In this document: positions 2,132-19,179 of the stretch, in pieces
Layout: each line of letters opens with the position of its first letter
Position numbering within the stretch: the first letter of the stretch is position 1
NCBI RefSeq assembly: GCF_006516955.1
Contig: NZ_VHLG01000011.1
Span: forward strand, 1-64,000
Origin: Martelella alba
GTDB taxonomy: Bacteria; Pseudomonadota; Alphaproteobacteria; Rhizobiales; Rhizobiaceae
DNA length: 64,000 nucleotides
Direction: 5' to 3'
Made by a program: the position numbers and the translations under genes
Notes under the pieces: model-generated
The model's database searches: none
Told to the model about the DNA's origin: nothing
What the model saw: the letters and a program-made list of their open reading frames with translations, nothing else

Positions 2132-3988
2132 TCACCCCCTGGCGACAACCACACGGAAACCATTGCCGCGCCATGAACCGGAGGGCTCCAGCGAACCGCG
2201 ATAGATGCCATTGGCCTTCCAGTCCGGACTGGAGAAACAGCCGCCACGCAGAACCCGACGAATATTGCCGGGCGCATCAAGCGCCTCACGCCCGTCTTCG
2301 CTCCAGGGAAAGGCAAAATCCGGCCGAGACATGTCAGGACCCCACAATGTGGTGCACCATTCCCAGGCCTGCCCCGCCATATCGAGACAGCCGAAAGGCG
2401 AACGGCCTTCCGGAAACAGGCCGACCGTCGAGATATCGTTGAAGCCGGTCTCCTCGCCATTGCCATGCTCAGACGCCCAGACATTGCCCCAGGGCCAGAC
2501 AAGACCATCCGCACCGCGCGCCGCAGCCTCCCATTCCCGCTCGAGCGGAAGACGAACGGTCTCATCGGCCGCGATCCGCCCTTCTGCCCGCCATTTATCC
2601 GTCAGCCAGGCGCAATAGGCACGGGCATCGTGCCAGGTCAGGTCCGTTGCCGGATGGGAAGCCCGCTCGGCCACCCGGCCATTGGCACTCGCCCAGCTTC
2701 TTCCGGTTTCCTCGACAAAAGCCAGATAGGCCGCATTGACGACCGGATAGATCGAGATGCGAAAATCACCGACCGGCGCATGATGGGCGGGGGCTGAATT
2801 GGGATGAATATCACCGCCCATTGGATAGGTCCCTGCGGGAACCGCGACAAGAGCCTCGAGATCACGTGGATCGCCCAGCCGTGCCAGCATGGCGCCGGCC
2901 CGGCGGCGCAGACCGACCGGGGCGCCGCCAGCTTCGATCGCCTGTACCAGCGCTGCGGTAACAAGGCCCGCCGTCTCGCTGCCGGAAACGGCCAGCGTTG
3001 CCGCAGCCAGCAGAACCGGCAGGCCGCCGTCAATTGCGGAAAGTCCGCGAACCAGCGCGTCAGCCCGGTCTTCGCCCGGCACCAGCCAGTCACAATAAAG
3101 ACCAAGCGGCCCGGCAAGCCGCTGAGGCGCTGCTGCCACAGCCTCGACCAGCCGGTCGACGGGCATACGTTCAAGTTCCGCCGCCTTGCGATAGGCAGCC
3201 GCCCACCCGGCCGAGACCGGAGCAAGAACGGCAACCTCACGCGGCGCCAGCACCCGGCCGGTTTCAACGGCGAGAAGCCAGAGCCCCGGCAGCACATAAT
3301 CGCGATCGGGATAGGGCTCGGAAAAGCCGTGAGCTGCGGCAAAATCCGCCCGCTCAGGCCGTGCAAGTCCGAGCAGACGATGTTCGGGCAGGCTTGCCGG
3401 ACGACGAATGCCTTCCAGCGCGCGGCTTTCACACAGGACCAGCAAACGCAGACGCTCAGACGCCGCCACTGCCGTCATCAGGCGTGATAGCAGGGCTTCC
3501 GGTTCGGCGCGCATTTCGAGTGCATCGACGATGAAAAGCACCGGTCCGCGGGTCATGGCCAGCGCATCGGCTAGGGCAGTATCTGCGTCCTCACCCTCAG
3601 CGCAGTAAAATGCCTGTGGCAGATCGGGCGGCAGATCCTGCTCAAGACAATCGCCTTCGCTGTTTCGAAACGCGGGACGCGTCAGCCGCGCGCGGTTGAA
3701 CAGCGCATCGCCATCATGGGTCCCCTTGATGCAGGCAGAAAGCTCGCGGGCAAAAGTGGTCTTGCCGCCGCCATGCGGCGCATGCAGAAGAAGCGCCGGA
3801 AACATGAAAGCCATCTCGGCCGCCGTATAATGCACCGGACGGCGCGGCCCGGCGTCGTCCTCACGAAACGCGCGCAGCCCCTTGGCTTCCTTGTCCTCAT
3901 GGGTAAAGCCGGCAAGAAGCGGAAGCATCACCTCGCGACCCTCCCCGGTATAGCCCCCCGTCAGGATTGGTTCTGCCTCGATCATCAT
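2132..3988 (-). CDS. P-loop NTPase fused to SUMF1/formylglycine-enzyme-like domain
   Basis: About 618 residues. A Walker A motif (APHGGGKTT) lies near residues 70-78, and a Walker B-like stretch (GPVLFIVDALE) follows. A mixed helical region leads to a C-terminal SUMF1/FGE-type domain from about residue 373 (VPAGTYPMGG, then CLDMAGQAWEWC, ending RVLRGGCF and GFRVV). The paired cysteines of true formylglycine-generating enzymes are not evident, so sulfatase activation is doubtful. The family also contains EgtB-type non-haem iron enzymes. The start is the ATG overlapping the stop of the upstream VOC gene (ATGATGA). It is the last gene of the minus-strand operon. The precise role is unknown. Confidence 0.8.
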   Translation of the reverse strand: MMIEAEPILTGGYTGEGREVMLPLLAGFTHEDKEAKGLRAFREDDAGPRRPVHYTAAEMAFMFPALLLHAPHGGGKTTFARELSACIKGTHDGDALFNRARLTRPAFRNSEGDCLEQDLPPDLPQAFYCAEGEDADTALADALAMTRGPVLFIVDALEMRAEPEALLSRLMTAVAASERLRLLVLCESRALEGIRRPASLPEHRLLGLARPERADFAAAHGFSEPYPDRDYVLPGLWLLAVETGRVLAPREVAVLAPVSAGWAAAYRKAAELERMPVDRLVEAVAAAPQRLAGPLGLYCDWLVPGEDRADALVRGLSAIDGGLPVLLAAATLAVSGSETAGLVTAALVQAIEAGGAPVGLRRRAGAMLARLGDPRDLEALVAVPAGTYPMGGDIHPNSAPAHHAPVGDFRISIYPVVNAAYLAFVEETGRSWASANGRVAERASHPATDLTWHDARAYCAWLTDKWRAEGRIAADETVRLPLEREWEAAARGADGLVWPWGNVWASEHGNGEETGFNDISTVGLFPEGRSPFGCLDMAGQAWEWCTTLWGPDMSRPDFAFPWSEDGREALDAPGNIRRVLRGGCFSSPDWKANGIYRGSLEPSGSWRGNGFRVVVARG

Positions 3989-4380
3989 TTGAAAAGCTTC
4001 ACAACCTCTAGATTGTGGAACCGCTGGATCTCGATCGCATAGCCCGCCGGATCTTCGAAGAAGAAATGCTCGCAATAGGTCCCGCGCAGCATATCCGACT
4101 GCCCGGTGACCCCGAGCGCCTTGAGCTTCGCATGCCAGGCGGCAACATCTTCTGAGACGATCGTCAGCAGGGCCGCACTTTTCGGCTGATGCTTCAGATG
4201 GCCCTTATTGCCGTCGACAATGCCGAAATAGGCATTTCCGGCAATGCGGTAGATCCGCGCCAGCCCCTGATCAAGCACCAGTTCGAAGCCCAGAACATCC
4301 TCATAGAACGGAGCAACGGCGTGAATGTCCTCGTAATAATAGAAGGTGATCGCGCATTCTTTCGGCAGTTCGGTCGTCAT
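3985..4380 (-). CDS. VOC-family (glyoxalase/dioxygenase-fold) protein
   Basis: A 131-residue single VOC module with the usual pattern of beta-alpha-beta repeats: FYYYEDIHAVAPFYEDVLGF at the start and FFFEDPAGYAIEIQRF at the end. The glutamate in AIEIQ is a likely metal ligand. The rest of the metal site is not obvious, so it could be an enzyme or a binding protein. Its stop overlaps the start of the ATPase-SUMF1 gene, and it begins 18 bp after the binding-protein-like gene, so the three are co-translated. Substrate unknown. Confidence 0.8.
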   Translation of the reverse strand: MTTELPKECAITFYYYEDIHAVAPFYEDVLGFELVLDQGLARIYRIAGNAYFGIVDGNKGHLKHQPKSAALLTIVSEDVAAWHAKLKALGVTGQSDMLRGTYCEHFFFEDPAGYAIEIQRFHNLEVVKLFK

Positions 4381-4398
4381 GTCAGTCCTCTTTGATGG

Positions 4399-5760
4399 TC
4401 AGGCAATGCGCAGAATACCCTTGGGATCGAGGCTGAAGCCTTCGAGCCCCGGTGCATGCGCCATGCAGTCGATCGGGTGAAACAGATAAAGCCAGTGCGG
4501 ATTGTGATGCAGATGGCAGAGAACGCGGCCATAGGCGGCGCTGCGCGCCTCCGGATCGACAAGGCGGCGTGCCGTCTCGAACAGATCATCGGCAACGAGA
4601 TCTTCAACGCCCTGCCACCAGACGGCACGCGACCGGCTGGAAATCTTGTCATCCAGCACCCGGAATGTGCTGTGCGGCGAACTGTCGAAGATCGCCAGAT
4701 CGCCGGTTTTCTTTTCGCCAAGCTCGCGGGCATAGCCGGGCCGGTCAGTCGCCGTATCGATGGTGACGGCAAACCCCACGGCCTCGAGATCCCGCTTGAT
4801 AAAGGCGGCGATCTCCGGCGCGCGCTCCGGCATATAGAGCGGTGTACGCAGGACGATCTCGCGCGACGCAGATGTTGCGCCGACAAGGTGGGCCGCCTCG
4901 GACGGATCAAAGGGGATCGCCGTCATGCTGTCCGACATGCCGTTATGGAACGGACTGACGATGGTTCTCGCGGGTATGCCGAGCCCGCCCATGACGTCAT
5001 TGACGAGCCTGTTGCGGTCAATCGCCAGATTGGCGGCAAGCCGCATCTGCGGATGGGCAAACGCCCCGTCCCGGCCGTTCATATAGGCAATCACCGACAT
5101 TGTGGTCGCCTGCTCGTGCCAGACAAAGCCTTCAAGCGCCCGCATCGGCGTTTCCAGACGGTCAAGATGGGTGGCAAGCTGAACAGTACCGGCGTGCAGA
5201 GCCTCAAGCCGGTCTTCCGCCTTCGGCATGGCGATCAGCCGCAGCTTTCGCCCGTCTCGATGCTGAAGGGTGACGGATTTTCCCTTATCGAAGGTCTCGA
5301 CCTGCCATGGCCCGGTTCCAAGCGTCGGCGTGCCATCGGGTGCCATTTTCGGCAGGTAGAACTCGGAGAGAATATCCGGCAGATCAGGAAAGGGCTTTGG
5401 CGTCGAAATTCTGAGCACGGAGCCTTCCGCCGTGATCACCGCCCCCTCAAGATAGCGGGCATAGGACCAGGGCATGCCGAACATGTCACGGGCATCGCAG
5501 ATTGCGTTGATAAAGTGCTTCGCATCCTCTGCCTGAACGGGTGTACCATCGTGATAGCAGGCTGCATCGCGCAAGCGCAGCATCCAGTGGCAGCCGTCAT
5601 CGGAGAGCGTCCAGCGGTCAAACAGGCCGGGACGGGCCGCGCCCTTTTCCCAGCGCAGCATCGGCTCTAGCACGAGGTTCTTCAGCGTCAGGACGCTTGC
5701 ATCATCCGTCACCCGGTCGGGCGGCAGGAAGTCGATCTTTTCAAGCGCAATCGTGATCAT
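4399..5760 (-). CDS. Binding-protein-like (SBP_bac_5) protein without signal peptide
   Basis: A 453-residue protein with the fold of dipeptide/oligopeptide binding proteins (DGCHWMLRLRDAACYHDGTP near the N-terminus, then a long two-lobed domain). It starts MITIALEKIDF directly at the domain, with no hydrophobic leader or lipobox, so it should stay in the cytosol. The ATG at 5760 overlaps the stop of the upstream permease (ATGA), which fixes the start. The operon already encodes a normal exported binding protein (7795-9396). This second one may be a cytosolic ligand carrier, sensor or recruited enzyme. The fold is well supported, the role is not. Confidence 0.8.
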   Translation of the reverse strand: MITIALEKIDFLPPDRVTDDASVLTLKNLVLEPMLRWEKGAARPGLFDRWTLSDDGCHWMLRLRDAACYHDGTPVQAEDAKHFINAICDARDMFGMPWSYARYLEGAVITAEGSVLRISTPKPFPDLPDILSEFYLPKMAPDGTPTLGTGPWQVETFDKGKSVTLQHRDGRKLRLIAMPKAEDRLEALHAGTVQLATHLDRLETPMRALEGFVWHEQATTMSVIAYMNGRDGAFAHPQMRLAANLAIDRNRLVNDVMGGLGIPARTIVSPFHNGMSDSMTAIPFDPSEAAHLVGATSASREIVLRTPLYMPERAPEIAAFIKRDLEAVGFAVTIDTATDRPGYARELGEKKTGDLAIFDSSPHSTFRVLDDKISSRSRAVWWQGVEDLVADDLFETARRLVDPEARSAAYGRVLCHLHHNPHWLYLFHPIDCMAHAPGLEGFSLDPKGILRIA

Positions 5761-6593
5761 GCGGCACTCCTGCGGCGCGGGTTGAACCAGTCTGCAAGCG
5801 AATCCCCGATCAGATTGAAAGAGAGGACCGTGATCAGAATGGCAAAGCCGGGCCCGAGCGCCGTCCACGGACTGGAACGGACAAAGGTGAGATTGGCCGA
5901 AACATCAGCCCCCCATTCCGGCATCGGCGGCTGCGCGCCCAGACCAAGGAAGCCAAGTGCTGAGGTCTGCAGGATGGCGCTGCCAAAGGCGAGCGAGGCC
6001 TGAACCAGAAGCGGGCCGATCGAATTGACGAAGATATAGCGGTTGAGGATGCGCATGCGCGGCAGGCCAAGCGAATTGGCCGCCTCAACATAAAGCCTTG
6101 AGGAAACGCCGAGCGCCTGCGAACGGGCAACGCGGGCAAATTGCGGGGCAAGCGTGATGGCGACGGCCAGCATTGCATTTTCAAGGCTTGGCCCGAAGGC
6201 TGCCGCCAGTGCAATCGCCAGAACCAGTGCGGGAAAGGACAGGATGGCATCGACGATGCGCATGATGATCGTGTCGACATAGCCGCCAGCAAAACCGGCA
6301 ACAAGCCCGAAAAATACACCGACGGCAAAGGCAATGGCCACGACGAAAACGCCGATTGCCAGCGTGTAGCGGCCGCCGGTCAGCACGCGCGAAAGCATGT
6401 CGCGGCCGAAATTATCCGTGCCGAGCCAGTGCGACCAGGACGGTGGCTGAAGCTTGGCCGCCATGTCGATGGCAAGCGGCGACGGCAGGAAGAAGGGGCC
6501 GATCAGCACGGCAAGAAGCATGACGGCCAGGACAAAAGTGCCAGCCATGGCGAGCGTGTTGCTTTTCAGGAAGGTGATGAGTTCGCGCATCAT
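5757..6593 (-). CDS. Peptide/nickel-type ABC permease, DppC/GsiD family
   Basis: A 278-residue inner-membrane permease with an N-terminal anchor helix (residues ~15-37), the GTDNFGRDMLSR motif typical of DppC/OppC proteins, and five further hydrophobic segments. The coupling loop contains EAANSLGLPRMRIL. It pairs with the upstream DppB-type permease (7 bp away) to form the channel. The energising ATPases are on the opposite strand at 10577-12370. The ATG overlap with the next gene indicates translational coupling. Confidence 0.93.
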   Translation of the reverse strand: MMRELITFLKSNTLAMAGTFVLAVMLLAVLIGPFFLPSPLAIDMAAKLQPPSWSHWLGTDNFGRDMLSRVLTGGRYTLAIGVFVVAIAFAVGVFFGLVAGFAGGYVDTIIMRIVDAILSFPALVLAIALAAAFGPSLENAMLAVAITLAPQFARVARSQALGVSSRLYVEAANSLGLPRMRILNRYIFVNSIGPLLVQASLAFGSAILQTSALGFLGLGAQPPMPEWGADVSANLTFVRSSPWTALGPGFAILITVLSFNLIGDSLADWFNPRRRSAA

Positions 6594-6600
6594 ATCGTCC

Positions 6601-7611
6601 TCAGTTCATCTTGCGCCGGACGCGCGGGTCGAGAACGGCATAGAGAATATCGACCAGCAGCGACGTCAGCATGAACATCAGCGCAAAGACCAGCGTCGCG
6701 CCCTGGATCACCGGATAGTCGCGATTGCGGATCGCTTCATACATGTAGCGACCAATGCCCGGCCAGGAGAAGATCGTTTCCGTCAGGATCGCACCACCGA
6801 GCATTTCGGCGAATTTAAGCCCGACCACGGTGATGGCGGGCAGCAGCGAATTGCGCAAGGCATGGGTATAGACAACATCATGCTGGCTCAGCCCCTTTGC
6901 CCGCGCGGTGCGGACAAAATCCTCATCCATCACTTCCAGCATGGTGGAGCGCACGAAACGGCCAAGCGTTGCCGCGAGGAACACCGCCAGCACAGTGGTC
7001 GGCAGGACCATATGGGCAATCGCGCTGCCAACGGCGCCGGGTTCACCGGAAAGCCAGGCATCGATGATGGAAAAGCCGGTGACCCGATCGACAAAAAGAT
7101 AGGAGGACATGCGACCCGAAACAGGCAGCCAGCCAAGCCAGGTGGCAAAAATCAGCTGCAGCAGCAGCGCCAGCAGAAAGGCCGGCATGGATACGCCGGT
7201 AAGCGAGATGACCCGCACGGTGTGATCGAAGCCGGAATTGGCCCGTGTGGCTGACAGAACACCGAGCGGAATGCCGATGATGACGGCGATCAGCACAGCG
7301 GCGATGGAGATTTCCAGCGTGGCGGGGAGACGGATCAGGATCTCGTCAAGAACCGGCTTTCCGGATTTCAGCGAGGTGCCCATATCGCCATGCAGCAGGC
7401 CGGTGAAATAGTTCCAGAACTGCAGCAGCGCCGGCTGGTCGAGGTCAAGCTGCGCTCTCAGCGCCGCGATCTGCGTGTCAGTGGCACCGGGTCCAAGCAG
7501 CGTAACCGCCGGATCGCCGGGAATAAGCCGGACCAGAGAAAAGACGATCACCAGGACCAGAAGCAGGACCGGGATCAGTGACAGCAATCGTCGCACGAGG
7601 AAGGCAAACAT
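6601..7611 (-). CDS. Peptide/nickel-type ABC permease, DppB/GsiC family
   Basis: A 336-residue membrane protein with the family N-terminus FLVRRLLSLIPVLLLV and the RLIPGDPAVTLLG motif. Five more helices follow, then the conserved coupling segment ARAKGLSQHDVVYTHALRN. The start at 7611 is preferred to in-frame upstream methionines because the family N-terminus begins there and AAGGTGG precedes it. It is one half of the transmembrane channel with the gene at 5757-6593. A block of three hairpins (7632-7762) separates it from the binding-protein gene. Confidence 0.93.
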   Translation of the reverse strand: MFAFLVRRLLSLIPVLLLVLVIVFSLVRLIPGDPAVTLLGPGATDTQIAALRAQLDLDQPALLQFWNYFTGLLHGDMGTSLKSGKPVLDEILIRLPATLEISIAAVLIAVIIGIPLGVLSATRANSGFDHTVRVISLTGVSMPAFLLALLLQLIFATWLGWLPVSGRMSSYLFVDRVTGFSIIDAWLSGEPGAVGSAIAHMVLPTTVLAVFLAATLGRFVRSTMLEVMDEDFVRTARAKGLSQHDVVYTHALRNSLLPAITVVGLKFAEMLGGAILTETIFSWPGIGRYMYEAIRNRDYPVIQGATLVFALMFMLTSLLVDILYAVLDPRVRRKMN

Positions 7612-7631
7612 CAAACCACCTTGTTGGCATG

Positions 7632-7762
7632 GCCGGTCCGGCGGGGGCGCCGGACCGGCAGAAGCATTCATTCCTTCGGGGGGCTCGAATGAATGCTCCA
7701 TTCCGTCTTAAACTACTTCCGCATCGCCGGCTGGCCGGTTGGATGGCCTGCCGGACGATGCG
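7632..7762 (-). promoter_or_regulatory. Three consecutive hairpins between binding-protein and permease genes
   Basis: Hairpin 1 is a perfect 12-bp stem (7632-7643 with 7648-7659). Hairpin 2 is a perfect 11-bp stem, AGCATTCATTC (7663-7673 with 7687-7697). Hairpin 3 is a longer imperfect stem (CGCATCG 7720-7726 with CGATGCG 7756-7762, plus inner pairs). None has a strong U-tract in the minus direction. In ABC operons such structures protect the upstream binding-protein mRNA and lower permease expression. Confidence 0.7.
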
Positions 7763-7794
7763 AAAGCGGGGCTAGGTCCAGAGGGGAGACAGAC

Positions 7795-9396
7795 CTATTC
7801 TTTCGAAACGCCCCAATATTCGTTGAGCGGCGGTGCCGAATTGATCACCAGACCGTCGACATTCGAACGCGCGAAGATGATCAGCTTCGGCGAGAAGAGG
7901 TAGGCGGCGGGCACATCGGCAACCAGCTTTTCCTGGATCTCGCCATAGAGTGCCTTGCGGGCATCCATGTCGGGCTCCTGCTGCGCCTTCAGGATCAGCG
8001 CATCAAGCTCGGCATTTTCAGGCATACGGAAGGTCATCGCCGAGTTCTTGAGGCTCGACAGATAGCCGATCGTGATGTGGGCATCGGGGTCATTATACCA
8101 GGGCTGACGGCCGTCCAGCGCAATATCCCAGTCACCGGCGACATGCAGCGCGCGGTAGGAGGGGAATTCGGTCTGGGCGATCTCAGCTTCAATGCCAACA
8201 GCGGCGAGATTGGCCTGAACGAAGGTCGCGACATCCCCCCAGAGCGAACCCTGGAACGAATAGAGCTTCAGCTTCAGCGGCTTGTCGGGACCGTAACCGG
8301 CCTCAGCAAGAAGCTTCTTGGCTTCTTCCGGATCATATTTCGGCGCCAGATCCTTGATCTTCGGATCGAAGGCCCAGCTGTTGCTGGTCAGCGGACCATA
8401 AACGCGGTCAGCCGTTCCATCAAACACGCCGGAGAGCAGGCCGTCATAATCGATCGCATGGGCGATGGCTTCGCGAACCTTGATATCGGCAACCGGCGAA
8501 TCCGTCTTGGAATTGTTGAATTCGAGCTGACGGATGATCTGCGAGGGCTTCTCGATGATCTTGATGTCCGCATTGTCAGCAAAGGCCTTCATTTCTTCGG
8601 ACGGAACGGCCGAGAGCTGGCTCTGCTGCTGGATGATGTCGACGCCGCCATTTTCAAGCTCGAGACGACGGGTCGAGGCCTCGGGAATGATGCGGTAGAT
8701 GATGCGCTTCAGCTTGGGCGCGCCGCGGAAATAATCCGGATTGGCGTCCAGCACGATGCGGGTATCCGGCTCATAGGCACGGAATGCGAAGGGACCGGTA
8801 CCAACCGGATGATTGGCGAAATCATCGCCGTATTTTTCAACAGCCGTCGGCGAGACAATGGCCGACTGGGGCTGCGCCAGGATCGACATGAAGGCCGGGT
8901 AAGGCGCATTCAGGTGAATGACAACCTCATCATCCTTGGGCGTATCAATGCTGTCGATCATGCCGAGCGTTGCTGCGACATAGGGGTTCAGTTCCTTGGT
9001 GCGCTCCAGCGAGAACTTCACGGCCTCAGCGTTGAACGGCGTACCGTCCTGGAACGTGACACCATCGCGCAGATCGAAGGTGAAGGTCTTGCCGTCGTCG
9101 GAAATCGACCAGTCTTCGGCAAGCCGGCCTTCAAGCTCGGAAAAATCCGGAGCCTTCCAGGCAACCAGCGTGTCGAACACGTTGAGGATGACTTCACTGC
9201 CGACAGGCTCGGCCTTGTTGGCGCCGGGTTCAAGACCGGCAGGATCGGAAGGAACAGCGACGACCAGCGTTTCGCTTTCCTGGGCGGTTGCAGTGGTTGC
9301 AAAGGTGGCGACAACACCGGCCGGCGCGAGCGTGGCAAAGCCCATGGCCAATGCAGCACCTGACATCGCTCCGAACATCTTGCGGGTCAGGTTCAT
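7795..9396 (-). CDS. Periplasmic ABC substrate-binding protein, DppA/GsiB type (SBP_bac_5)
   Basis: A 533-residue protein with a Sec signal peptide (basic MNLTRK, hydrophobic stretch, cleavage near ATTATAQES). The family-5 binding-protein fold follows (DDGKTFTFDLRDGVTFQDGTPF). It captures a peptide-like or glutathione-like ligand for the importer encoded beside it. AGAGGAG lies seven bases upstream of the ATG. It is the second gene of the minus-strand operon, after the sulfurtransferase. Family membership does not reveal the ligand. Confidence 0.93.
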   Translation of the reverse strand: MNLTRKMFGAMSGAALAMGFATLAPAGVVATFATTATAQESETLVVAVPSDPAGLEPGANKAEPVGSEVILNVFDTLVAWKAPDFSELEGRLAEDWSISDDGKTFTFDLRDGVTFQDGTPFNAEAVKFSLERTKELNPYVAATLGMIDSIDTPKDDEVVIHLNAPYPAFMSILAQPQSAIVSPTAVEKYGDDFANHPVGTGPFAFRAYEPDTRIVLDANPDYFRGAPKLKRIIYRIIPEASTRRLELENGGVDIIQQQSQLSAVPSEEMKAFADNADIKIIEKPSQIIRQLEFNNSKTDSPVADIKVREAIAHAIDYDGLLSGVFDGTADRVYGPLTSNSWAFDPKIKDLAPKYDPEEAKKLLAEAGYGPDKPLKLKLYSFQGSLWGDVATFVQANLAAVGIEAEIAQTEFPSYRALHVAGDWDIALDGRQPWYNDPDAHITIGYLSSLKNSAMTFRMPENAELDALILKAQQEPDMDARKALYGEIQEKLVADVPAAYLFSPKLIIFARSNVDGLVINSAPPLNEYWGVSKE

Positions 9397-9581
9397 TCTG
9401 AACTCCTCTGTTTGTTATGACGGTCCGGTTCTCCGAACCTGACTTATTTGAATACTGGTGATATATCTTTTGCAATATCTATTTTCGATTTTTCATTGCT
9501 CTCATATTTTTATTAGAGCCAATTTTTAAAAATCGAATGATATTTGTGCATCTGCACATCACCCTGCACAGAATCCATGCA
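9397..9581. promoter_or_regulatory. AT-rich intergenic region with several inverted repeats
   Basis: It separates the sulfurtransferase and binding-protein genes. It contains a perfect 14-bp inverted repeat TGTGCATCTGCACA (9545-9558), a long-range repeat TCGATTTTT/AAAAATCGA (9485-9493 and 9528-9536), and a small hairpin CCGGTTCTCCGAACC in the binding-protein leader. An internal promoter for the transporter genes is plausible (TTGCAA and TATTCA-like elements on the minus strand), but the spacing is poor. Confidence 0.45.
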
Positions 9582-10445
9582 TCAAGGATGCGGCCCACGC
9601 TTCACCGGCCGGTTAGGGTCGCCAATCCACTGCGACCAGGAGCCCGGATACATCGCCGCCTCAATCCCCACCGCCGCCAGGGCCAGCACCTCATGCGCCG
9701 CAGACATGCCCGCACCGCAATAGACACCAACCGGCTTTTTACCGTCGACACCCAGCCCCGAAAACAGCTCCCGCAGCGTCACACTATCGGTGAACGGGCC
9801 CGGGTCCGTCAGCGTGTCGAGTGTCGGCGCGCTGATTGCGCCGGGAATATGTCCACGCTTCGGATCACCGCCCTCAACGGCACCACCTATATAATTAGGG
9901 CGGATTCGCGCATCGAGTAGGACCCCGCTTTGCGCCAGTGCCAAAGCCTCATCGGCCGAGAACGTCCGCATCTGCCCGGCCGTCAGGACAATATCCGTCT
10001 CCGCCTTTGTTTCCGGGGCATTCACCACCGAAAGGCCGGCGGTGAGCCAGGCCGGCAAACCGCCATCAAGCACGCGGACATCCTTGAAGCCCGCCCATTT
10101 CAGCACCCACCAGGCACGCGCTGCCGTCATGGCACGATCCGCATCATAAACGACGATGCAGCGATCCTGCGTCAGCCCCCAGCGCCGGGCCGCGTCCTGG
10201 AGACTGGCGATGGAAGGCAGCGGGCGATTGCCCTTCTCTTCGCTTCCCGGCGCCTGAAAATCCGTATAGGCCTCGGCCTCGACCGCACCAGGCACATAGA
10301 TGCCATTGCGCGAATCGACCCCGGTATAAGGATTGACCGACTGAACGGCGATGATGTGCGGCGGCGCATCACCACGGATCATCGCATCGAGCTCCTGCGC
10401 AGTCAGCAGAGCCTTCCGCCGGGTTTCCATATCAGTTTTAAACAT
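9582..10445 (-). CDS. 3-mercaptopyruvate/thiosulfate sulfurtransferase (two-domain rhodanese)
   Basis: A 287-residue tandem rhodanese. The N-terminal inactive domain spans about 12-145, the catalytic domain about 155-280. Active-site Cys243 sits in the loop CGAGMSA. That loop resembles mercaptopyruvate sulfurtransferases (CG-S/A-G) more than thiosulfate rhodaneses (CRKG). It would move sulfur from 3-mercaptopyruvate or another sulfane donor to a thiol acceptor or cyanide. The start at 10445 follows AGGAG; upstream in-frame methionines lie in the promoter region. It is the first gene of the minus arm, next to a C-S lyase on the plus arm, which suggests sulfur-compound metabolism. Confidence 0.88.
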   Translation of the reverse strand: MFKTDMETRRKALLTAQELDAMIRGDAPPHIIAVQSVNPYTGVDSRNGIYVPGAVEAEAYTDFQAPGSEEKGNRPLPSIASLQDAARRWGLTQDRCIVVYDADRAMTAARAWWVLKWAGFKDVRVLDGGLPAWLTAGLSVVNAPETKAETDIVLTAGQMRTFSADEALALAQSGVLLDARIRPNYIGGAVEGGDPKRGHIPGAISAPTLDTLTDPGPFTDSVTLRELFSGLGVDGKKPVGVYCGAGMSAAHEVLALAAVGIEAAMYPGSWSQWIGDPNRPVKRGPHP

Positions 10446-10494
10446 CGCAGCGCTCCTAATTCGTATCCCAGATATATCACGAGAAACTTTGTGT

Positions 10495-10576: not shown

Positions 10577-12370
10577 ATGTCCGTTCTCTCGATCAACAAT
10601 CTGACCACCGCCTTTGCTACGGCTCAAGGCTGGCGCAGCGTCGTCGACGGCATCAGCTTCGATGTCGATGCAGGCGAGACGGTGGCGGTGGTCGGCGAAT
10701 CGGGTTCCGGCAAGAGTGTCACCGCTTTGTCGGTGATGGGGCTTCTGCCCAGGGCGAAATCGCGCGTTACCGGCGAAATCAATTTTCGCGGCCGCAACCT
10801 CGTCTCTCTTTCAGAAGAAGAGATGCAGGAAGTACGCGGCAATGAGATCGCGATGATCTTTCAGGAGCCGATGACGTCGCTGAACCCGGTCATGACTGTC
10901 GGCCGTCAGATCGCCGAGCCGCTGATGCGCCATCGCAGCCTGCCGCAGCGTCAGGCGATGAAGGAAGCGATTCGGCTGATGGACCGGGTGCGCATTCCTG
11001 CCGCGGCTAAGCGGGCCTATGAGTATCCACATGAAATGTCCGGCGGCATGCTGCAGCGTGTGATGATCGCCACTGCGCTTGCCTGCGCACCGAAGCTTCT
11101 GATCGCCGATGAGCCGACCACGGCACTTGACGTCACCATCCAGGCGCAGATCCTTGAACTGATCAAGGAATTGCAGTCAGAAGACCATATGGCGGTGATG
11201 TTCATCACCCACGACATGGGCGTCGTCGCCGAAGTCGCCGACCGGACCGTGGTGATGTTCCGCTCGAAGATGATGGAAGCCGGTGCCACCGAAGATGTCT
11301 TTGCCCGGCCCGAGACCGACTATACCCGCGAGCTTCTGGCCGCAGCACCAAGACTTGGTGATCTCGGCGACAGCCCGCTGCCCCGTCCCTATCCCGGACG
11401 CGACGGTGTTCTGGCCGCAGCCGTCGACACGGTTGATCATGGCGCTGGCCCGCTGCTGGAGGTGAAGAACCTCTCGACCCGGTTTGACATCAAGAAGGGC
11501 GTTCTCGGCCGGGTTCATGCGCGTGTCCATGCGGTGGAAAACGTCTCATTCTCGGTTCAGAAGGGCGAAACGCTGGCAGTTGTCGGCGAATCCGGCTGTG
11601 GCAAATCGACCACCGGCCGCTCGATCCTGCAACTGGTCAAACCCGTCGCCGGGACGGTGATGCTGGACGGCCATGATGTCGGCAAGATGAAGCGGCGTGA
11701 ACTTCTGCGGCTCCGCCAGTCGATGCAGATGATCTTTCAGGATCCCTTCTCCAGCCTCAATCCCCGCATGCGCATCGGCGAGGCGATCGCCGAGCCGATG
11801 CTCGCCCATGGCATTGCCACACCGGCCGAAGCGCGCGACAGGGTTGCCACACTTCTCGAACAGGTCGGCCTTGCCGCGGACATGGCCAGCCGCTGGCCCC
11901 ACGAATTCTCCGGCGGCCAGCGCCAACGCATCGCGATTGCCCGTGCGCTTGGCCTCAACCCCAAGCTGATCGTCGCCGATGAAAGCGTGTCCGCTCTCGA
12001 TGTGACCATCAAGGCGCAGGTCATCAACCTGATGATGAAACTGCAGCAGGACCTCGGGCTTGCCTATGTCTTCATCAGCCATGACATGGCCGTGGTCGAG
12101 CGCATCAGCCACCGGGTTGCCGTCATGCTGCTGGGCGAGATCGTCGAAATCGGTCCACGCGCCGAAATTTTTGCCAATCCCAGCCACCCCTATACCAGAC
12201 GGCTGCTTTCAGCCGTGCCGGAACCCGACCCTGCCCGCCGGCTCATGCGCCGCCACGTGCCGCTGCAGGAGCTGAAAAGTCCGATCTTCCCTGCAAGCTA
12301 TGCCCCGCCGCAGCGTGTTTACGATGCCGTTGGGCCCGATCATTTCGTCATGCGCGAGGCTGAGGCTTGA
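10577..12370 (+). CDS. Fused double ABC ATPase (DppD-DppF / GsiA type)
   Basis: A 597-residue protein with two complete ATP-binding cassettes. Cassette 1 has Walker A GESGSGKS (40-47), signature SGGMLQR (155-161) and Walker B LLIADE. Cassette 2 has GESGCGKS (337-344), signature SGGQRQR (445-451) and LIVADE followed by Ser instead of the usual Pro. Single-chain fusions of this kind occur in GsiA-type (glutathione) importers. It should energise the permeases encoded at 5757-7611 on the other strand. ATG at 10577 is chosen; a GTG five codons upstream is possible. Confidence 0.92.
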
Positions 12371-12398
12371 AGCCGCCCGCGAAGAGCAAAGACAGACC

Positions 12399-13064
12399 AT
12401 GGCCCGTATCCTCGTTTTGAACCCCAACAGTTCCCGCAAGGTCACTGCATCGATTGCGCTCTGCCTGCGCGACCTTGCCGCGACCACGCATCACCGCATC
12501 GATTGCGACCAGTTGCCGGAAGCGCCGCTCGGCATTGAAAGCGATGCCGATGTTGAAACTGTCGCCCCGATGGTGATGGAGCGCGCAAAGGCAACGGACG
12601 CCGATGCCCTGGTGATCTCCTGCTTTTCCGATCCGGGCGTCGAGGCCGTGCGCAAGGCCGTCACCCATATTCCGGTGATCGGCATTGCCGAGGCCGGCTA
12701 CTATGCCAGCCTCCAGCTCGGCCGCCGCTTCGGCGTCGTCTCGCTTGGCCCGGCATCGATTGCCCGCCATGCGCGCCGCATTGACGAGCTTGGCATCACG
12801 CCGCGTCTTGCCGGAGACCGTTCGGCCTCGCTGACGGTGGAAGAATCCGGCGATGACGGGCTTGCGCGCGACAAGGTCATTCAGACCGGCAGGCTTCTGG
12901 CGCAGGAAGACAGCGCCGATGTCATCATTCTGGGCTGCGCCGGCATGGGCATGCAGCGTCCCTTCCTTCAGGCCGCGATCGGCCTGCCGGTGGTTGATCC
13001 CGTTCAGGCCGGCGTCGCCGCCGCCATCTCCGCATTGAATCTCGAATATATCGTAAAGGCATAA
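12399..13064 (+). CDS. Asp/Glu/hydantoin racemase family protein
   Basis: A 221-residue cofactor-independent racemase. The family's two catalytic cysteines are present as Cys75 (VISCFSDPG) and Cys180 (ILGCAGMG), placed to take and give the alpha proton from opposite faces. The N-terminus ARILVLNPNSS is typical of HyuE-like hydantoin and allantoin racemases. The start is placed after the ATPase stop, before the conserved MARILVLNPN. It lies five bases before a cyclic amidohydrolase gene, the usual partner of hydantoin racemases, so a cyclic ureide or thio-analogue is a reasonable substrate. Confidence 0.88.
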   Translation: MARILVLNPNSSRKVTASIALCLRDLAATTHHRIDCDQLPEAPLGIESDADVETVAPMVMERAKATDADALVISCFSDPGVEAVRKAVTHIPVIGIAEAGYYASLQLGRRFGVVSLGPASIARHARRIDELGITPRLAGDRSASLTVEESGDDGLARDKVIQTGRLLAQEDSADVIILGCAGMGMQRPFLQAAIGLPVVDPVQAGVAAAISALNLEYIVKA

Positions 13065-13069
13065 AAGCA

Positions 13070-14437
13070 ATGGATCTCTTACTGCGCGGAACCATCATCA
13101 CCCCGCTCGCCGCGCTTGCCGGCGGCTGGGTTGCCGTCAAGGACGGCAAGATTGCCGCCATCGGAGACGCGAGCGAAACGCCGCCGTCGGCAACCAGAAC
13201 CGTTGATTACGGCGACAAGCTGATCCTGCCCGGCGTGATTGACGGGCAGACCCATGCCACCAGCGCCAAGGGGCTCGAAGGCATTGCCGACACCACCCGC
13301 TCGGCCGTCGCCGGTGGCATCACCACGCTGGTCGACATGCCCTTTGACAGCCCGGAGCCGCTGGACCGCCCGGAACGCCTGACGGCCAAGGTTGAAGCCA
13401 TTTCCGCGCATTCCTATGCCGATATGGCCCTTTATGCGACCGTCACCAAACATACCGGCGTCGCGCATATCGATGCGCTGATCGAAGGCGGCGTTGCCGC
13501 GTTCAAGATTTCCTCCTTTGAAAGCTCACCGACCCGTTTCCCGCGCATTGGTGCCGATCTGATGCTCGACATCATGGAGAAGCTTTCCGACACCAACATT
13601 CCGCTCGGACTTCACAATGAAGACCAGGAGATCGTTCTGGAGCGCATCGCCCGCGCCCGCGCTGCCGGCGAAAACGGCATCAATGCCCATTCCACCGCGC
13701 GCCCCCCGGCTGCAGAACTTGCGGCAACGGCACAGTTTTTGGCCCTTGCCCAGGCGACCGGCGCCCATGCCCATCCGGTTCATCTGACCAGCGGTTCCGG
13801 CTTTGATATGGTCGAAGCCTTTGCCGAAATGGGCGTGCGCGCCACCGGCGAGACCTGCGTTCACTATCTCTGGTTCGATGCCGGTCGTGACGGCCTGCGC
13901 CTCGGCCCCCGCATGAAGGTCAATCCGCCGATCCGCCCCGGCGAGGTCGATAATCTCTGGGATGCCATTGTTGATGGCAAGGTCGCCTTCACCTCTTCGG
14001 ATCATTCCAGCTGGCCAATTGATGGCAAGCTGACAGAATCGATTTTCGATGCCGGAGCCGGTGTTCCGGGTCTCGAGACGCTGCTGCCCGCCTTTTTCAC
14101 GGCAGCCGAAGCGCGCGGCCTCGATGCGGCGATGCTGGCCGCCGATCAGCTGTCAGAGCGCCCGGCCGTCTTCTTCGGCCTGTCGGATCGCAAGGGTGCG
14201 ATCCGCGTCGGCATGGATGCCGATTTTGCGGTACTGGAAGAAGGTGCCTTCACCTGGAATGAAGCGAAAGCCCATGACGGACTGACCTGGTCGCCCTTCC
14301 ACGGCGAGGTGTTCACCGTGCGTGTTGCCGCGACCTATCTGCGTGGCGATCTCGCATTCGACGGCAAAGACATCACCGGCAAGGCTGGCTCGGGGCGCTA
14401 TGTCGCCCGTGGCGCCGATTGCTGGTTCGGCAATTGA
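13070..14437 (+). CDS. Cyclic amidohydrolase (allantoinase/dihydropyrimidinase-like), variant metal site
   Basis: A 455-residue TIM-barrel amidohydrolase that should open a cyclic amide. Candidate metal ligands are a carboxylatable Lys146 (AAFKISSF), His182 (LGLHNED), His238 (HPVHLTS) and Asp311 (FTSSDHSSW). The usual first HxH motif after PGxIDxHxH reads PGVIDGQTH, so the first histidine is Gln60 and only His62 remains. Metal content or substrate may therefore differ from classical allantoinase or hydantoinase. It starts five bases after the racemase stop and ends ten bases before the aldolase gene. Confidence 0.88.
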   Translation: MDLLLRGTIITPLAALAGGWVAVKDGKIAAIGDASETPPSATRTVDYGDKLILPGVIDGQTHATSAKGLEGIADTTRSAVAGGITTLVDMPFDSPEPLDRPERLTAKVEAISAHSYADMALYATVTKHTGVAHIDALIEGGVAAFKISSFESSPTRFPRIGADLMLDIMEKLSDTNIPLGLHNEDQEIVLERIARARAAGENGINAHSTARPPAAELAATAQFLALAQATGAHAHPVHLTSGSGFDMVEAFAEMGVRATGETCVHYLWFDAGRDGLRLGPRMKVNPPIRPGEVDNLWDAIVDGKVAFTSSDHSSWPIDGKLTESIFDAGAGVPGLETLLPAFFTAAEARGLDAAMLAADQLSERPAVFFGLSDRKGAIRVGMDADFAVLEEGAFTWNEAKAHDGLTWSPFHGEVFTVRVAATYLRGDLAFDGKDITGKAGSGRYVARGADCWFGN

Positions 14438-14447
14438 GGAGAACAAG

Positions 14448-15374
14448 ATGAGCCTTCTGACTTCTGACGCAAAAGGCGTCTTCGTCATCTCGGTCACGCC
14501 GTTTCATGAGGATGGCCGGATCGATTTCGACAGTCTCGATCGCGTCACCGATTTCTATCTGGAAAAGGGCGTGACCGGCATCACCGTGCTTGGCATGATG
14601 GGTGAAGCGCCGAAGCTGACCCAGGCCGAAGCAAAAGAGGTTGTGGCCCGCGTGATCAAGCGCGCCGGCAAAACCCCGATTGTCGCCGGCGTTTCCGCCC
14701 CCGGCCTTGCCGCCATTTCCGAGCTTTCCAAGGCGGCGATGGATATGGGTGCGGCCGGCGTGATGATCGCACCGCCCGGCCGGCTGAAAACCGACGGCCA
14801 GATTGCCGGCTATTACCGTGAAGCCTGCGAAGCCGCAGGTGACGGTGTTCCGGTCGTTCTGCAGGATTTCCCTCTGTCGACCGGTGTTCAGATTGCACCG
14901 ACCGTGCTTGGCCAGATCATCGAGGAAAACAGTCAGGTCGTCATGCTCAAGCATGAGGACTGGCCGGGCCTGGCGAAGATCACCGCCCTGCGCAAGGCCG
15001 AGAGCGAAGGCCGTCGCCGGATCTCGATCCTTTGCGGCAATGGCGCGCTGTTTCTGCCGGAAGAGATGGGCCGCGGCGCCGATGGTGCCATGACCGGTTT
15101 CGGCTATCCGGAAATGATGGCCGAGGTGGTCGCACTGACGGGCAATGGAGACATGGACCGGGCGCAGGATATCTTCGATGCCTATCTGCCGCTGGTGCGT
15201 TACGAGCAACAGCCGGGCCTTGGCCTTTCCGTGCGCAAATATGTGCTTGCTAAACGCGGCGCGATTGCTTCTGCAGCACTGCGCAAGCCGGGCGCAGGCC
15301 TTACCCCAGCGGCTGTTGCCGAAGTCGAGCGCCTGATCGAACGCCAGACAAAAAGACTGAAGGAACTTGCCTGA
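14448..15374 (+). CDS. DapA/NAL-family lyase-like protein
   Basis: A 308-residue TIM barrel of the dihydrodipicolinate synthase/N-acetylneuraminate lyase superfamily. The Schiff-base lysine is Lys168 (VVMLKHEDWPG). The GTTGE loop reads GMMGE, and the catalytic tyrosine of DapA is replaced (VVLQDFPLSTG, Gln139). It is therefore unlikely to be lysine-pathway DapA; it more likely forms or cleaves a C-C bond next to a carbonyl in this catabolic route. TTGAGGAG precedes the ATG at 14448. Its TGA overlaps the ATG of the SDR gene. Confidence 0.87.
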   Translation: MSLLTSDAKGVFVISVTPFHEDGRIDFDSLDRVTDFYLEKGVTGITVLGMMGEAPKLTQAEAKEVVARVIKRAGKTPIVAGVSAPGLAAISELSKAAMDMGAAGVMIAPPGRLKTDGQIAGYYREACEAAGDGVPVVLQDFPLSTGVQIAPTVLGQIIEENSQVVMLKHEDWPGLAKITALRKAESEGRRRISILCGNGALFLPEEMGRGADGAMTGFGYPEMMAEVVALTGNGDMDRAQDIFDAYLPLVRYEQQPGLGLSVRKYVLAKRGAIASAALRKPGAGLTPAAVAEVERLIERQTKRLKELA

Positions 15375-16144
15375 TGGATTTCAAGCTCAAGGAAAAACGT
15401 GCCCTCGTTCTGGGTGCCAGCCGTGGCCTAGGTGCCGCATCAGCCATTCTTCTGGCCGAAGAAGGTGCGACCGTTGTCGCCGCCTCGCGCTCCGGCGCGC
15501 TGCCGCAAGGCCTCCCGGACGCCCTCAGGTCAAAGGTCACGGCCGTCACGCTCGATCTTGCCGACCCGGCTTCTGTTGCTGCCATGAAGGAAGAGCTGGC
15601 GAAGAACCCGGTTGATATTCTCGTCAACAATTGCGGCGGCCCGAAAGCGGGCCCGGCGCGCGGTCAGTCCGTGGCCGCATGGCAGGCCGCCTTCGCCGCC
15701 ATGGCAACGCCGGTTTTCGACCTGACCGATGCAGCCCTTGCGGCCATGACTGAAAAGGGCTGGGGCCGCGTCATCACCATCGGCTCGTCAGGCATTGAAG
15801 TGCCGATCCCGAGCCTGGCCCTTTCCAATGGCGTGCGCGGTGCGATGGCTGGCTGGTCGAAGACGCTTGCCGCAGAAGTTGCCGACAAGGGCATCACCGT
15901 CAACATGGTTCTGCCCGGCCGGATCGCCACTGACCGTGTCGCCGAACTTGATGCCGGCAAGGCCGAAAAGACCGGCAACTCGGTTGATGCCGTGCGTGCG
16001 GCATCGCGCGCCACCATTCCCGCCGCCCGCTATGGCCGCCCGGAAGAATTCGCAGCCGTCGTCACTTTCCTTGCTTCCGAGCAGGCAAGCTTCGTCACCG
16101 GCTCGATGATCCGTGTCGACGGCGGCATGATCCGGAGCATCTGA
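15374..16144 (+). CDS. SDR-family oxidoreductase, divergent active site
   Basis: A 256-residue Rossmann-fold protein with the nucleotide-binding motif GASRGLG (14-20) and the NNCGG motif (85-89). The catalytic serine is present in TIGSSG (~138-139). The classical YxxxK is replaced by SNGVR (~151-155), giving Ser and Arg. A divergent SDR group with LALSN-type sequences exists, so the gene is probably functional but mechanistically different, or the protein binds cofactor without normal reduction. It is translationally coupled to both neighbours (TGATG overlaps). Confidence 0.87.
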   Translation: MDFKLKEKRALVLGASRGLGAASAILLAEEGATVVAASRSGALPQGLPDALRSKVTAVTLDLADPASVAAMKEELAKNPVDILVNNCGGPKAGPARGQSVAAWQAAFAAMATPVFDLTDAALAAMTEKGWGRVITIGSSGIEVPIPSLALSNGVRGAMAGWSKTLAAEVADKGITVNMVLPGRIATDRVAELDAGKAEKTGNSVDAVRAASRATIPAARYGRPEEFAAVVTFLASEQASFVTGSMIRVDGGMIRSI

Positions 16145-17295
16145 TGACCGACATCATCGCAATCGACCGGCGCGGCAGCGACAGCAACAAATGGCGGGCC
16201 TTCCCGCAAAACGTCATTCCGCTGCCCGTTGCCGATATGGATTACGCCGCTGATCCGGCCATCATCGCGGCCATTGAAAAGCGGCTGGCCCATGGCGTAC
16301 TCGGCTATGGTTCTGCGACCGACAGCTTGAGGGCCGTGCTGGTCGATGCGATGATGCACGACTATGGCTGGAAGATCGAACCGGACTGGCTCGTTTTCCT
16401 GCCGGGCGTCGAACCCGGCTTCAACATGGCGCTCAACGCCTTCACCCGGCCGGGCGACACGGTGATGCAGGAATTTCCGGTCTATAAGCCTCTGCGCACC
16501 GCACCGGCCACCTGGGGTCTCAAAACCGCAGCCATCTGGCAGACGCATAGCGAAACCGGCCGCTGGGAAAGCGACCACGAGGCTTTGGAAAAGGCGGCAT
16601 CACATGCGAGCCTGATGCTGCTCTGCAATCCGCAAAACCCGACCGGCCGCGTATACAGCCACGAAGAGCTCACCTTCAGGGCTTCGCTGTGCCTGAAGCA
16701 TGATCTGCTTTTGGTCTCCGACGAGATCCATTGCGGGCTGACGCTGGATGGGCGCAAGCATATTCCGGTTGCCTCGCTTTCGAAGGATATCGAAAACCGT
16801 TCGATCACACTGATGGCCGCCAGCAAGACCTGGAACATCGCCGGACTGAAGGCAGCCTTTGCGATCGTGCCGAATGCTGCAATCCGGTCCCGCTTCATGG
16901 AAGCCAAGAAAGGCCTTGTCGACAGCGTCAACGTACTGGGACTTGCCGCGATGGAAGCAGCCTATCGCGACGGCGGTGCGTGGCGTCAGGCGGTCCGTGA
17001 GAAGATCGCCGAGAACCGCGATATGCTGCATCGCGCACTTGATGAAACCATGCCGAAGGCCAAAGCCCTCAAGGCCGATGCCAGCTTCCTGGCCTGGATC
17101 GACCTTTCTGCCTACAACCTTAACGCGCCGGCAGCATCCTGGCTTCTGCAGCATGCGCGGATCGGTGTCAGCGACGGTCGCGATTTCGGCGACGGTCTCG
17201 AACAGTTTGTCCGACTTAATTTCGCATCTGCGGCAGAAACCCTTGCCGAAGCGCTTCGGCGTATGGCAAAGGCACTGGAAAACAAAGAACGATAA
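16144..17295 (+). CDS. PLP-dependent C-S lyase / aminotransferase, PatB/MalY family
   Basis: A 383-residue fold-type I PLP enzyme. Lys228 (ASKTWNIAG) is the internal aldimine lysine. Asp193 (VSDEIHCGL) and the CNPQNPTGR segment (161-169) bind the cofactor. The MalY/PatB family beta-eliminates cysteine S-conjugates and cystathionine to pyruvate, ammonia and a thiol; some members transaminate. Its presence with a mercaptopyruvate-type sulfurtransferase points to a sulfur-containing amino-acid substrate. The ATG overlaps the SDR stop. It is the last enzyme gene of the plus-strand operon. Confidence 0.88.
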   Translation: MTDIIAIDRRGSDSNKWRAFPQNVIPLPVADMDYAADPAIIAAIEKRLAHGVLGYGSATDSLRAVLVDAMMHDYGWKIEPDWLVFLPGVEPGFNMALNAFTRPGDTVMQEFPVYKPLRTAPATWGLKTAAIWQTHSETGRWESDHEALEKAASHASLMLLCNPQNPTGRVYSHEELTFRASLCLKHDLLLVSDEIHCGLTLDGRKHIPVASLSKDIENRSITLMAASKTWNIAGLKAAFAIVPNAAIRSRFMEAKKGLVDSVNVLGLAAMEAAYRDGGAWRQAVREKIAENRDMLHRALDETMPKAKALKADASFLAWIDLSAYNLNAPAASWLLQHARIGVSDGRDFGDGLEQFVRLNFASAAETLAEALRRMAKALENKER

Positions 17296-17307
17296 AGAGG
17301 GAATGTC

Positions 17308-18030
17308 ATGCCGCGTGGCAAGAGCGACAGCAAGACGACAGCGCGCAAAAATGGCGCGCAGACCGACAAGGCAAAGTCGCTGACGGACCAGGCCTATGAC
17401 CGCCTGCGTCACGAGATCATCACCTGTAAGCTGCAACCGGGAACGGATCTTGGCGAACAGGAACTGGCCGAAAAGCTTGCCATGAGCAAAACGCCGGTGC
17501 GCGAAGCGCTGGCGCGACTGACGCTTGAAGGCCTTGTCGAGGCCTTTCCCCGGCGCGGCTACCGTATCACCCCGGTGACGGTCAAAAGCGTCAATGACGT
17601 TTTCACCGTGCGCAAGGCGCTGGAAGGCGTTGCCTGCGAGCTTGCCGCAGACCGGCTGACCGATGAGGAGATCGACCGGATCGAGGCTCTTTCCGACGCT
17701 ACCTATGTGCCGGGCGAGGAGCCGACAATCGAGGCCTTTATCAAGACCAACAACGATTTCCATGCGGCCATTGCCGAGGGCGCGCGCGTGCCGCGCCTCG
17801 TCACGCTGATTTCCTCCTATCTGGAAGAATCAACCCGGCTTTTCTACATGGGCGCCGCCATGCGCGACGTGAATCCGGAGACCTCGACCGACCACGCCCG
17901 GATCGTCGCGGCCCTGCGCCGGCATGACAGTGATGCCGCCCGCGAGGCCATCATCCAGCACACGGAAAACACCCGTCGCGGCCTGCTGACCGCGCTGATA
18001 TCCGACAGCGAGTCGCTGCTGGTGCTGTAG
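17308..18030 (+). CDS. GntR-family (FCD) transcriptional regulator
   Basis: A 240-residue regulator. The winged-helix DNA-binding domain spans about 26-95 (LTDQAYDRLRHEI, LAMSKTPVREALARL). An FCD ligand-binding domain follows (FHAAIAEGARV, DHARIVAAL, about 100-230). FCD members usually sense small carboxylates. It is the last gene of the operon and probably controls it from the palindrome at 10502-10513, giving substrate-dependent induction of both arms. GAGGGAATG precedes the start. A hairpin at 18038-18056 follows. Confidence 0.9.
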   Translation: MPRGKSDSKTTARKNGAQTDKAKSLTDQAYDRLRHEIITCKLQPGTDLGEQELAEKLAMSKTPVREALARLTLEGLVEAFPRRGYRITPVTVKSVNDVFTVRKALEGVACELAADRLTDEEIDRIEALSDATYVPGEEPTIEAFIKTNNDFHAAIAEGARVPRLVTLISSYLEESTRLFYMGAAMRDVNPETSTDHARIVAALRRHDSDAAREAIIQHTENTRRGLLTALISDSESLLVL

Positions 18031-19170: not shown

Positions 19171-19179
19171 TTTCCGCTC

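Follow-up and report, generated by a model that had tools for sequence, protein, structure and literature searches.

A conserved divergent gene unit of Martelella alba with a ring-opening core and a sulfur module, possibly a catabolic regulon for a cyclic amino-acid derivative

Introduction

The described systems closest to the locus reported here are the Ert pathway, the hyu clusters, the 2-amino-thiazoline-4-carboxylate (ATC) route of Pseudomonas, and the PatB/MalY C-S lyases. In the ATC route, a racemase and a ring hydrolase act in turn, and the hosts then degrade cysteine to pyruvate, sulfide, and ammonia (PMC10821248). The locus that we compared with these systems consists of 14 genes in two divergent arms, which span positions 2132-18030 of a 64-kb stretch of Martelella alba DNA (hereafter the window, the whole stretch that was analysed). 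An earlier note, made from the letters of the window, had suggested that thirteen genes form one regulon and that its ring-opening and sulfur enzymes act on one cyclic sulfur-containing amino-acid derivative.

Judged by comparison with related loci, the 14 genes very probably constitute one co-regulated unit. On the same comparison, the unit is real, conserved though patchy, and shared among soil and marine alphaproteobacteria, and it divides into a ring-opening core and an add-on sulfur module. As to its function, we tentatively propose, with slightly less than even confidence, that the core and the module together form a GntR-controlled catabolic regulon for an imported cyclic amino-acid derivative.

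Results

The left arm encodes, in this order, a rhodanese, an exported family-5 binding protein, the DppB and DppC permeases, a second binding protein, a VOC protein, and an ATPase-SUMF1 fusion. The right arm encodes a GsiA-type double ATPase, a racemase, a cyclic amidohydrolase, a DapA-like lyase, an SDR protein, PatB, and a GntR regulator. The features are as follows.

2132..3988, minus strand: P-loop (NACHT/STAND-like) ATPase fused to a SUMF1/FGE-like domain, 618 residues (Pfam PF03781, 133 bits)
3985..4380, minus strand: VOC/glyoxalase-fold protein (Pfam PF00903)
4399..5763, minus strand: second family-5 binding protein without a signal peptide, probably cytoplasmic (PF00496; its start codon, an ATG at 5763, overlaps the 3' end of the permease C gene)
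5757..6593, minus strand: DppC-type permease (profile match)
6601..7611, minus strand: DppB-type permease (reading frame open to 7701; start at 7611 by homology)
7795..9396, minus strand: exported family-5 substrate-binding protein (profile match; signal-peptide-like N-terminus)
9458..9467, minus strand: operator-like site GATATATCAC, preceding the gene of the exported binding protein
9582..10445, minus strand: two-domain rhodanese with the loop CGAGMSA (PF00581; reading frame open to 10532; homologous start at about 10445)
10471..10480, plus strand: operator-like site GATATATCAC between the divergent rhodanese and GsiA genes, with a conserved TTGACA following it
10577..12370, plus strand: double ABC ATPase of the GsiA type (NF007613; reading frame open from 10562)
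12399..13064, plus strand: Asp/Glu/hydantoin racemase family protein (PF01177; reading frame open from 12300)
13070..14437, plus strand: cyclic amidohydrolase, a paralogue of ErtD (hydantoin-5-propionate amidohydrolase; NF058538, 477 of 600 bits)
14448..15374, plus strand: DapA-superfamily lyase with the Schiff-base Lys kept and the DapA triad lost (GMMGE, QD; profile match and alignment)
15374..16144, plus strand: SDR-fold protein with SNxxR replacing YxxxK (profile match and alignment)
16144..17295, plus strand: PatB-family C-S lyase (TIGR04350, 386 bits, cut-off 340)
17308..18030, plus strand: GntR/FCD regulator (PF00392, PF07729)

Profile searches confirmed every gene listed in the earlier note and its arrangement in two divergent arms, and the gene positions bear out the splitting of the transporter, with the binding proteins and permeases on the left and the GsiA-type ATPase on the right. 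The number of genes is 14 and not 13.

Synteny of the set was kept in genomes of or near the genus (G002, G004, G005, G009, G010, and G032), the last gene, ATPase-SUMF1, being cut off by the end of the extracted stretch in G002, G005, and G009. The set was also syntenic in G352; in G241, parts of it were reordered and the SDR matches had merely 29 and 38% identity. For a wider comparison, 88 loci from a search with the DapA-like enzyme and from relatives were reduced to 86 by removing the duplicates L042 and L069. Some of these are short contigs or stop at the 10-kb flanks. Genes were located by tblastn and a hexamer model, and the identity thresholds were set by us (e.g., PatB 45, rhodanese 55, permeases 60%). 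PatB occurred in 16 of the 86 loci, and 15 of the 16 also carried the rhodanese, the exported binding protein, and both permeases; at these thresholds, none of the 70 PatB-less loci carried any of these genes. The association of PatB, rhodanese, and transporter gave a Fisher value of 7e-16, calculated over related genomes that are not independent. In the sixteenth locus, L117 of genome G726, a distance of about 70 kb separates the left arm and GsiA from the other genes, but both arms are retained on one contig. PatB matches in G750 (46%) and G739 (48%) were not counted, because only weak ABC and SDR matches stood alongside; their surroundings give the impression, by sequence, of sugar metabolism.

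The ATPase-SUMF1 fusion followed the same distribution. An orthologue was present in all 11 PatB-locus genomes searched, which served as the positive control for the later searches, and in none of 15 genomes having DapA-family loci without PatB (the genome of L095 not included). A further 17 genomes, 16 of them new, yielded two orthologues and one weak match, giving 2 of 31 outside the PatB-locus genomes. Of these two exceptions, G748 carries a second, full locus (L172), and G750 carries the left arm only (L171). A distant match (38%) was located on a short contig of G745.

The sequence GATATATCAC occurs exactly twice in the 64 kb, at 9458-9467 (−) and 10471-10480 (+). This count alone is not significant: with one mismatch allowed, about one match is expected by chance, and two or more sites appeared in 27 of 100 shuffles. 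Shared control is supported by the position of the sites and their conservation in ten loci, not by their number. Among these ten Martelella-type loci, which include the window and two that are nearly identical, the inter-arm site was exact in all ten and was followed by TTGACA in nine and by TTGATA in L036, and the site before the binding protein was exact in five and had one change in five. Rhizobium- and Devosia-type loci carry a related palindrome of the CGTAGTATATCACG type with up to three mismatches. Five loci (L050, L059, L063, L067, and L068) have it at three places, namely ahead of the binding protein, in the rhodanese-GsiA interval, and in the interval from GntR to the racemase, and L064, L070, L091, and L117 have it at some of these places. 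Over 21 loci, 11 matches with at most two mismatches were counted vs 1 in single-base shuffles, and 55 with at most three mismatches vs 19; the pattern was derived from L050 and L059 and is hence circular for these two. The Martelella-type loci had no match to it. The palindrome also precedes the racemase in L053, L061, and L078, which have no sulfur module. We infer that the GntR protein recognises these operator-like sites, and the unit is probably under its control. Near-identical sites ahead of both arms lend sequence support to the shared control suggested in the earlier note and, together with co-conservation, back its view of one regulon. A scan for sigma-70 promoters found no match by its rules, and the single-strand fold of the divergent region was not unusual.

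A second version of the locus, found in Sulfitobacter, Labrenzia, and others, contains VOC, a Dpp-type ABC system, a signal-less binding protein, another amidohydrolase, a racemase, a DapA-like protein, and mostly an SDR. The stretches that were read had no PatB or rhodanese, and the genomes searched had no ATPase-SUMF1. Therefore, the sulfur module proper consists of PatB, rhodanese, and ATPase-SUMF1. The PatB protein exceeds the TIGR04350 cut-off (386 vs 340 bits). Its best solved relative is 5z0q (308 bits), which we take to be OvoB of ovothiol synthesis. The 13 PatB copies of the order that are not of the locus type (surroundings inspected for six, which stand outside such a locus) score 305-337 bits. 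OvoA was found in none of 289 genomes of the class, the present one included, at E ≤ 1e-60, in a search for which 1 of 14 control genomes was positive. Because no OvoA match was found and the 5z0q score is no higher than those of the 13 other C-S lyases, the idea that PatB is an OvoB was dropped. The rhodanese scores 113 bits against the 3-mercaptopyruvate sulfurtransferase model NF008557, below the cut-off of 250, and its active-site Cys loop CGAGMSA is kept in 22 of 22 copies.

In the ATPase-SUMF1 fusion, G73, G75, K76, D155, and C584 (GGCF) are invariant in 17 sequences. Matches of its N-terminal P-loop domain to AAA_16 and NACHT are below the cut-off, as are those to nSTAND in relatives. 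Matches to SenA, EgtB, OvoA, PvdO, OvsA, and FGE are likewise far below the curated cut-offs (e.g., SenA 69.5 of 420 and EgtB 48.9 of 360 bits). FGE carries a copper-binding Cys pair; such a pair is not conserved at the C-terminus of the fusion. A single-sequence structure model had a predicted local distance difference test score (pLDDT) of 37 and was not used. Known proteins with SUMF1-type domains include oxidases and C-S or C-Se synthases, and such a role, however far below the cut-offs the matches lie, would suit a module for detoxification or upkeep. PatB, rhodanese, and ATPase-SUMF1 would then repair or mature something, such as a cysteine adduct of a reactive intermediate, while the core degraded a sulfur-free cyclic amide. 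The occurrence of the core without sulfur genes fits this explanation. However, a specific transporter of its own accompanies the module in 15 of 16 loci and suggests that a different molecule is imported, and we consider the explanation rather doubtful.

The core, comprising the racemase, the ErtD-like amidohydrolase, the DapA-like lyase, and often the SDR, also occurs with other transporters. The nearest NCBIfam model of the amidohydrolase is ErtD (NF058538), with 477 bits and a cut-off of 600. The true ErtD of the same genome (G000:C33:270154-271491) reaches 753 bits and shares 40% identity with the protein of the locus. It belongs to an ergothioneine-type locus (G000:C33:255001-292000; L031, L032) encoding a histidine-ammonia-lyase-like protein, ErtE, ErtD, and a Dpp-type ABC system, where ErtE, an M20 carbamoylase, scores 552 bits (cut-off 520). 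Because the genome has this separate ergothioneine locus, ergothioneine was dropped as a substrate. The amidohydrolase is also related to L-hydantoinase and allantoinase. All 21 full-set amidohydrolases have a PTRFPRI loop, and the true ErtD has PNRFPRI; the RFPRI loop is absent from the L-hydantoinase and the two allantoinases aligned. The arginine motif common to the locus protein and ErtD therefore suggests that the ring bears an acidic side chain. The solved structures nearest to the racemase are a putative hydantoin racemase (3qvj) and an allantoin racemase (5lfd). That an acidic cyclic amide is imported and its ring opened is, on these resemblances, somewhat more probable than not. PatB is missing from 15 of 31 amidohydrolase loci, and sulfur is therefore not a property of the core. 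The cyclic sulfur-containing substrate of the earlier note remains plausible, with the reservation that these 15 loci impose; we give a C-S bond in the predicted substrate an even chance.

The DapA-like enzyme scores 104 bits against TIGR00674, below the cut-off of 206. All 21 copies have GMMGE, QD, and the Schiff-base Lys; the triad of DapA itself is Thr/Tyr/Tyr. The QD pair is also present in L-2-keto-3-deoxyarabonate dehydratase, and the enzyme is inferred to act on a 2-oxo acid, as a dehydratase or a lyase. The family is large and mainly alphaproteobacterial, with at least 596 pattern matches and at least 578 relatives at E ≤ 1e-3. Some of its loci hold genes for D-hydantoinase, M20 carbamoylase, nitrilase, or amidase, which supports a ring chemistry. 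Neighbours of the DapA-like gene (L038-L125) further include a TRZ/ATZ-type deaminase and DoeA-like and creatininase-like proteins. In L107 and L109, the core stands with a DUF917-like protein, an M20 carbamoylase, a flavin reductase-like protein, and a GlcD-like FAD oxidase (DUF917 and GlcD by our own reading).

Classical SDR dehydrogenases have a YxxxK motif. The SDR of the window and every motif-covering match of at least 46% identity have SNxxR instead; therefore, ordinary dehydrogenase chemistry cannot be assumed. SNxxR also occurs in four aligned solved relatives, and the last ring has SNIMR or SNGAR. The solved members of the subgroup, 2z1n and 5va8, are named without a substrate.

The GsiA-type ATPase reaches 740 bits against NF007613, below the cut-off of 1077. 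The GsiA, mercaptopyruvate sulfurtransferase, and DapA labels of the earlier note thus stand as family resemblances, and all three are below the curated cut-offs. None of the 29 copies of the second binding protein that were read, 19 of the full type and 10 of the second version, had a signal peptide, and the exported one had a signal-like N-terminus in 19 full-type and 9 second-version copies; these were judged by eye with 12 upstream residues, and the hydropathy values of the two groups overlap, so that these values are no proof. The AlphaFold model of the second binding protein (pLDDT 89) has its first strand from residue 2, and the 50 matches listed in a fold search were ordinary family-5 binding proteins throughout. 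The protein is probably cytoplasmic. By title, the literature search found no signal-less binding protein of such a kind. The VOC protein keeps HFFFEDPAGYAxEIQ in 15 of 15 copies.

Elsewhere in the window, positions 18070-25495 hold a sugar ABC transporter, a protein that reaches 392 of 950 bits with the model of aceric acid hydrolase, and, next to these, a regulator of the LacI type; the transporter ATPase and the hydrolase were matched by profile, and the other labels are sequence impressions. Positions 45600-64000 seemingly hold a gene cluster for phenylacetate degradation that includes an ABC transporter of the branched-chain type, again an impression gained without hidden Markov models. 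No Rfam families were found in the window.

Discussion

The proposed regulon would work as follows. A small acidic cyclic amino-acid derivative would be imported by the DppBC/GsiA-type ABC system with its exported binding protein, and the hydantoin-racemase-type enzyme would bring both enantiomers to the form opened by the ErtD-like amidohydrolase. Given the RFPRI motif common to ErtD, the ring is likely a hydantoin, thiohydantoin, or thiazoline/thiazolidine with a carboxylate. The PatB-type lyase would act on the opened product or on an S-conjugate and split a C-S bond of the cysteine type. Its products would be ammonia, either pyruvate or a keto acid, and a thiol or hydrosulfide that passes to the rhodanese. 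What is left of the carbon chain may be handled by the DapA-like lyase and, in loci that have it, the atypical SDR. For the signal-less binding protein, VOC, and ATPase-SUMF1, the most likely role is an intracellular one, in binding, sensing, or chaperoning.

Several observations weigh against this proposal. The distribution is patchy: of the 13 genomes compared within the genus, six carry the full set with a close amidohydrolase (83-100%), and seven lack it, of which two (G007 and G012) have the core alone and five have neither core nor full set. The 397 genomes of the order gave 17 PatB matches, 4 of them of the locus type. GsiA was not found in L064, L070, and L091, and a core-type SDR was not found in L064, L068, L070, and L148, where matches were unrelated (28-38%) or lacking. 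In G750 (L171:8943-18533), the left arm and GntR stand with no right arm adjoining (GntR, rhodanese, binding proteins, permeases, VOC, and ATPase-SUMF1). The co-conservation of the arms expected by the earlier note thus mostly holds, the solitary left arm of L171 being a departure from it and the distant arms of L117 a softer one. A tree of ErtD-like proteins with 41 rows needs seven changes of the full-set label, five of them forced by supported branches, and none of 200 bootstrap trees had a single change; therefore, sulfur may concern a precursor only. The tree rows L056 and L058 were unlabelled, yet their genomes hold module genes elsewhere. Finally, no M20 carbamoylase or amidase of the compared kinds was found in 23 full-set or single-arm stretches, and a nitrilase was found in L034 alone, which is unfavourable because a plain hydantoin route would need such an enzyme. 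The queries were the ErtE of the same genome and four carbamoylase-type proteins drawn from other loci, and they find kin in several loci across the whole locus set. A carbamoylase, nitrilase, or amidase was found neither among the 14 genes nor anywhere in the window's first 20 kb. The nitrilase of L034 (L034:16274-17841, in G004; 66% identity to that of L115) and a second racemase (38%) adjoin the full-set regulator, as in hydantoin clusters.

The locus might nevertheless be a plain hyu variant, in which a D,L-5-substituted hydantoin is racemised and opened, the carbamoylase is encoded elsewhere, and the other genes handle the amino acid. A racemase together with a hydantoinase follows the logic of hyu systems (PMC3546935). 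The M20 carbamoylase ErtE is encoded elsewhere in the genome, and carbamoylase-type genes adjoin other loci of the family and one full-set stretch, L034. However, PatB, rhodanese, and ATPase-SUMF1 are left unexplained, and G032 has the full set with one amidohydrolase match at E ≤ 1e-80, so that a true ErtD seems absent there (ErtE was not searched for). We regard this variant as very improbable.

The near-absence of carbamoylases would be explained if cysteine in a cyclised form, for instance ATC or 2-oxothiazolidine-4-carboxylate, were the substrate, because none would then be needed. The racemase would fix C4, the ErtD-like enzyme would open the ring to S-carbamoyl-cysteine, PatB would eliminate directly, and the rhodanese would take the sulfur. 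The same order of racemase and ring hydrolase is known from the Pseudomonas ATC route (PMC10821248), and the joint travelling of PatB and rhodanese would also be accounted for. However, the same kind of core serves PatB-less loci, the DapA-like enzyme and SDR are left without a role, and the attack would be at C2 rather than at the usual amide carbon. We consider this route unlikely.

Returning to the proposed regulon, a bolder extension is that ATPase-SUMF1 and the cytoplasmic binding protein are constant partners of the C-S lyase and rhodanese, plugged onto an exchangeable ring-opening core, and that the DapA-like and SDR-like enzymes without textbook residues run an undescribed chemistry. 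It is conceivable, if somewhat unlikely. If the proposal is true, a pathway for cyclic, probably sulfur-bearing amino-acid derivatives is added for soil and marine alphaproteobacteria, a first metabolic role is given to the ATPase-SUMF1 fusion and to the signal-less solute-binding protein, and functions may be assigned more easily in the DapA-like family (at least 578 relatives) and the SDR subgroup.

No description of the gene set was found in the open-access literature on ergothioneine, thiohydantoin, hydantoinase/racemase, ergothionase, and C-S lyase topics. The statement of the earlier note that no such pathway is described agrees with this, and the catabolic unit is undescribed as far as we searched. 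The Ert pathway resembles it in that ErtD is nearest to the amidohydrolase, the RFPRI loop is common, and a Dpp-type ABC system is present at both loci. In contrast, the locus is below the ErtD cut-off and has no ergothionase-type lyase or ErtE, both of which are encoded elsewhere in the genome. The hyu clusters share a racemase and a cyclic amidohydrolase with the locus; they are characterized by a racemase, a hydantoinase, and an N-carbamoylase in one cluster, whereas the locus lacks a carbamoylase and adds DapA-like, SDR, PatB, rhodanese, and ATPase-SUMF1 genes. The Pseudomonas ATC route, likened here by the order of reactions, also has racemisation, ring opening, and loss of sulfur as sulfide, but the locus has more genes. 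With the PatB/MalY C-S lyases, finally, the likeness is one of family: the locus protein passes TIGR04350, and a beta-elimination is predicted for it.

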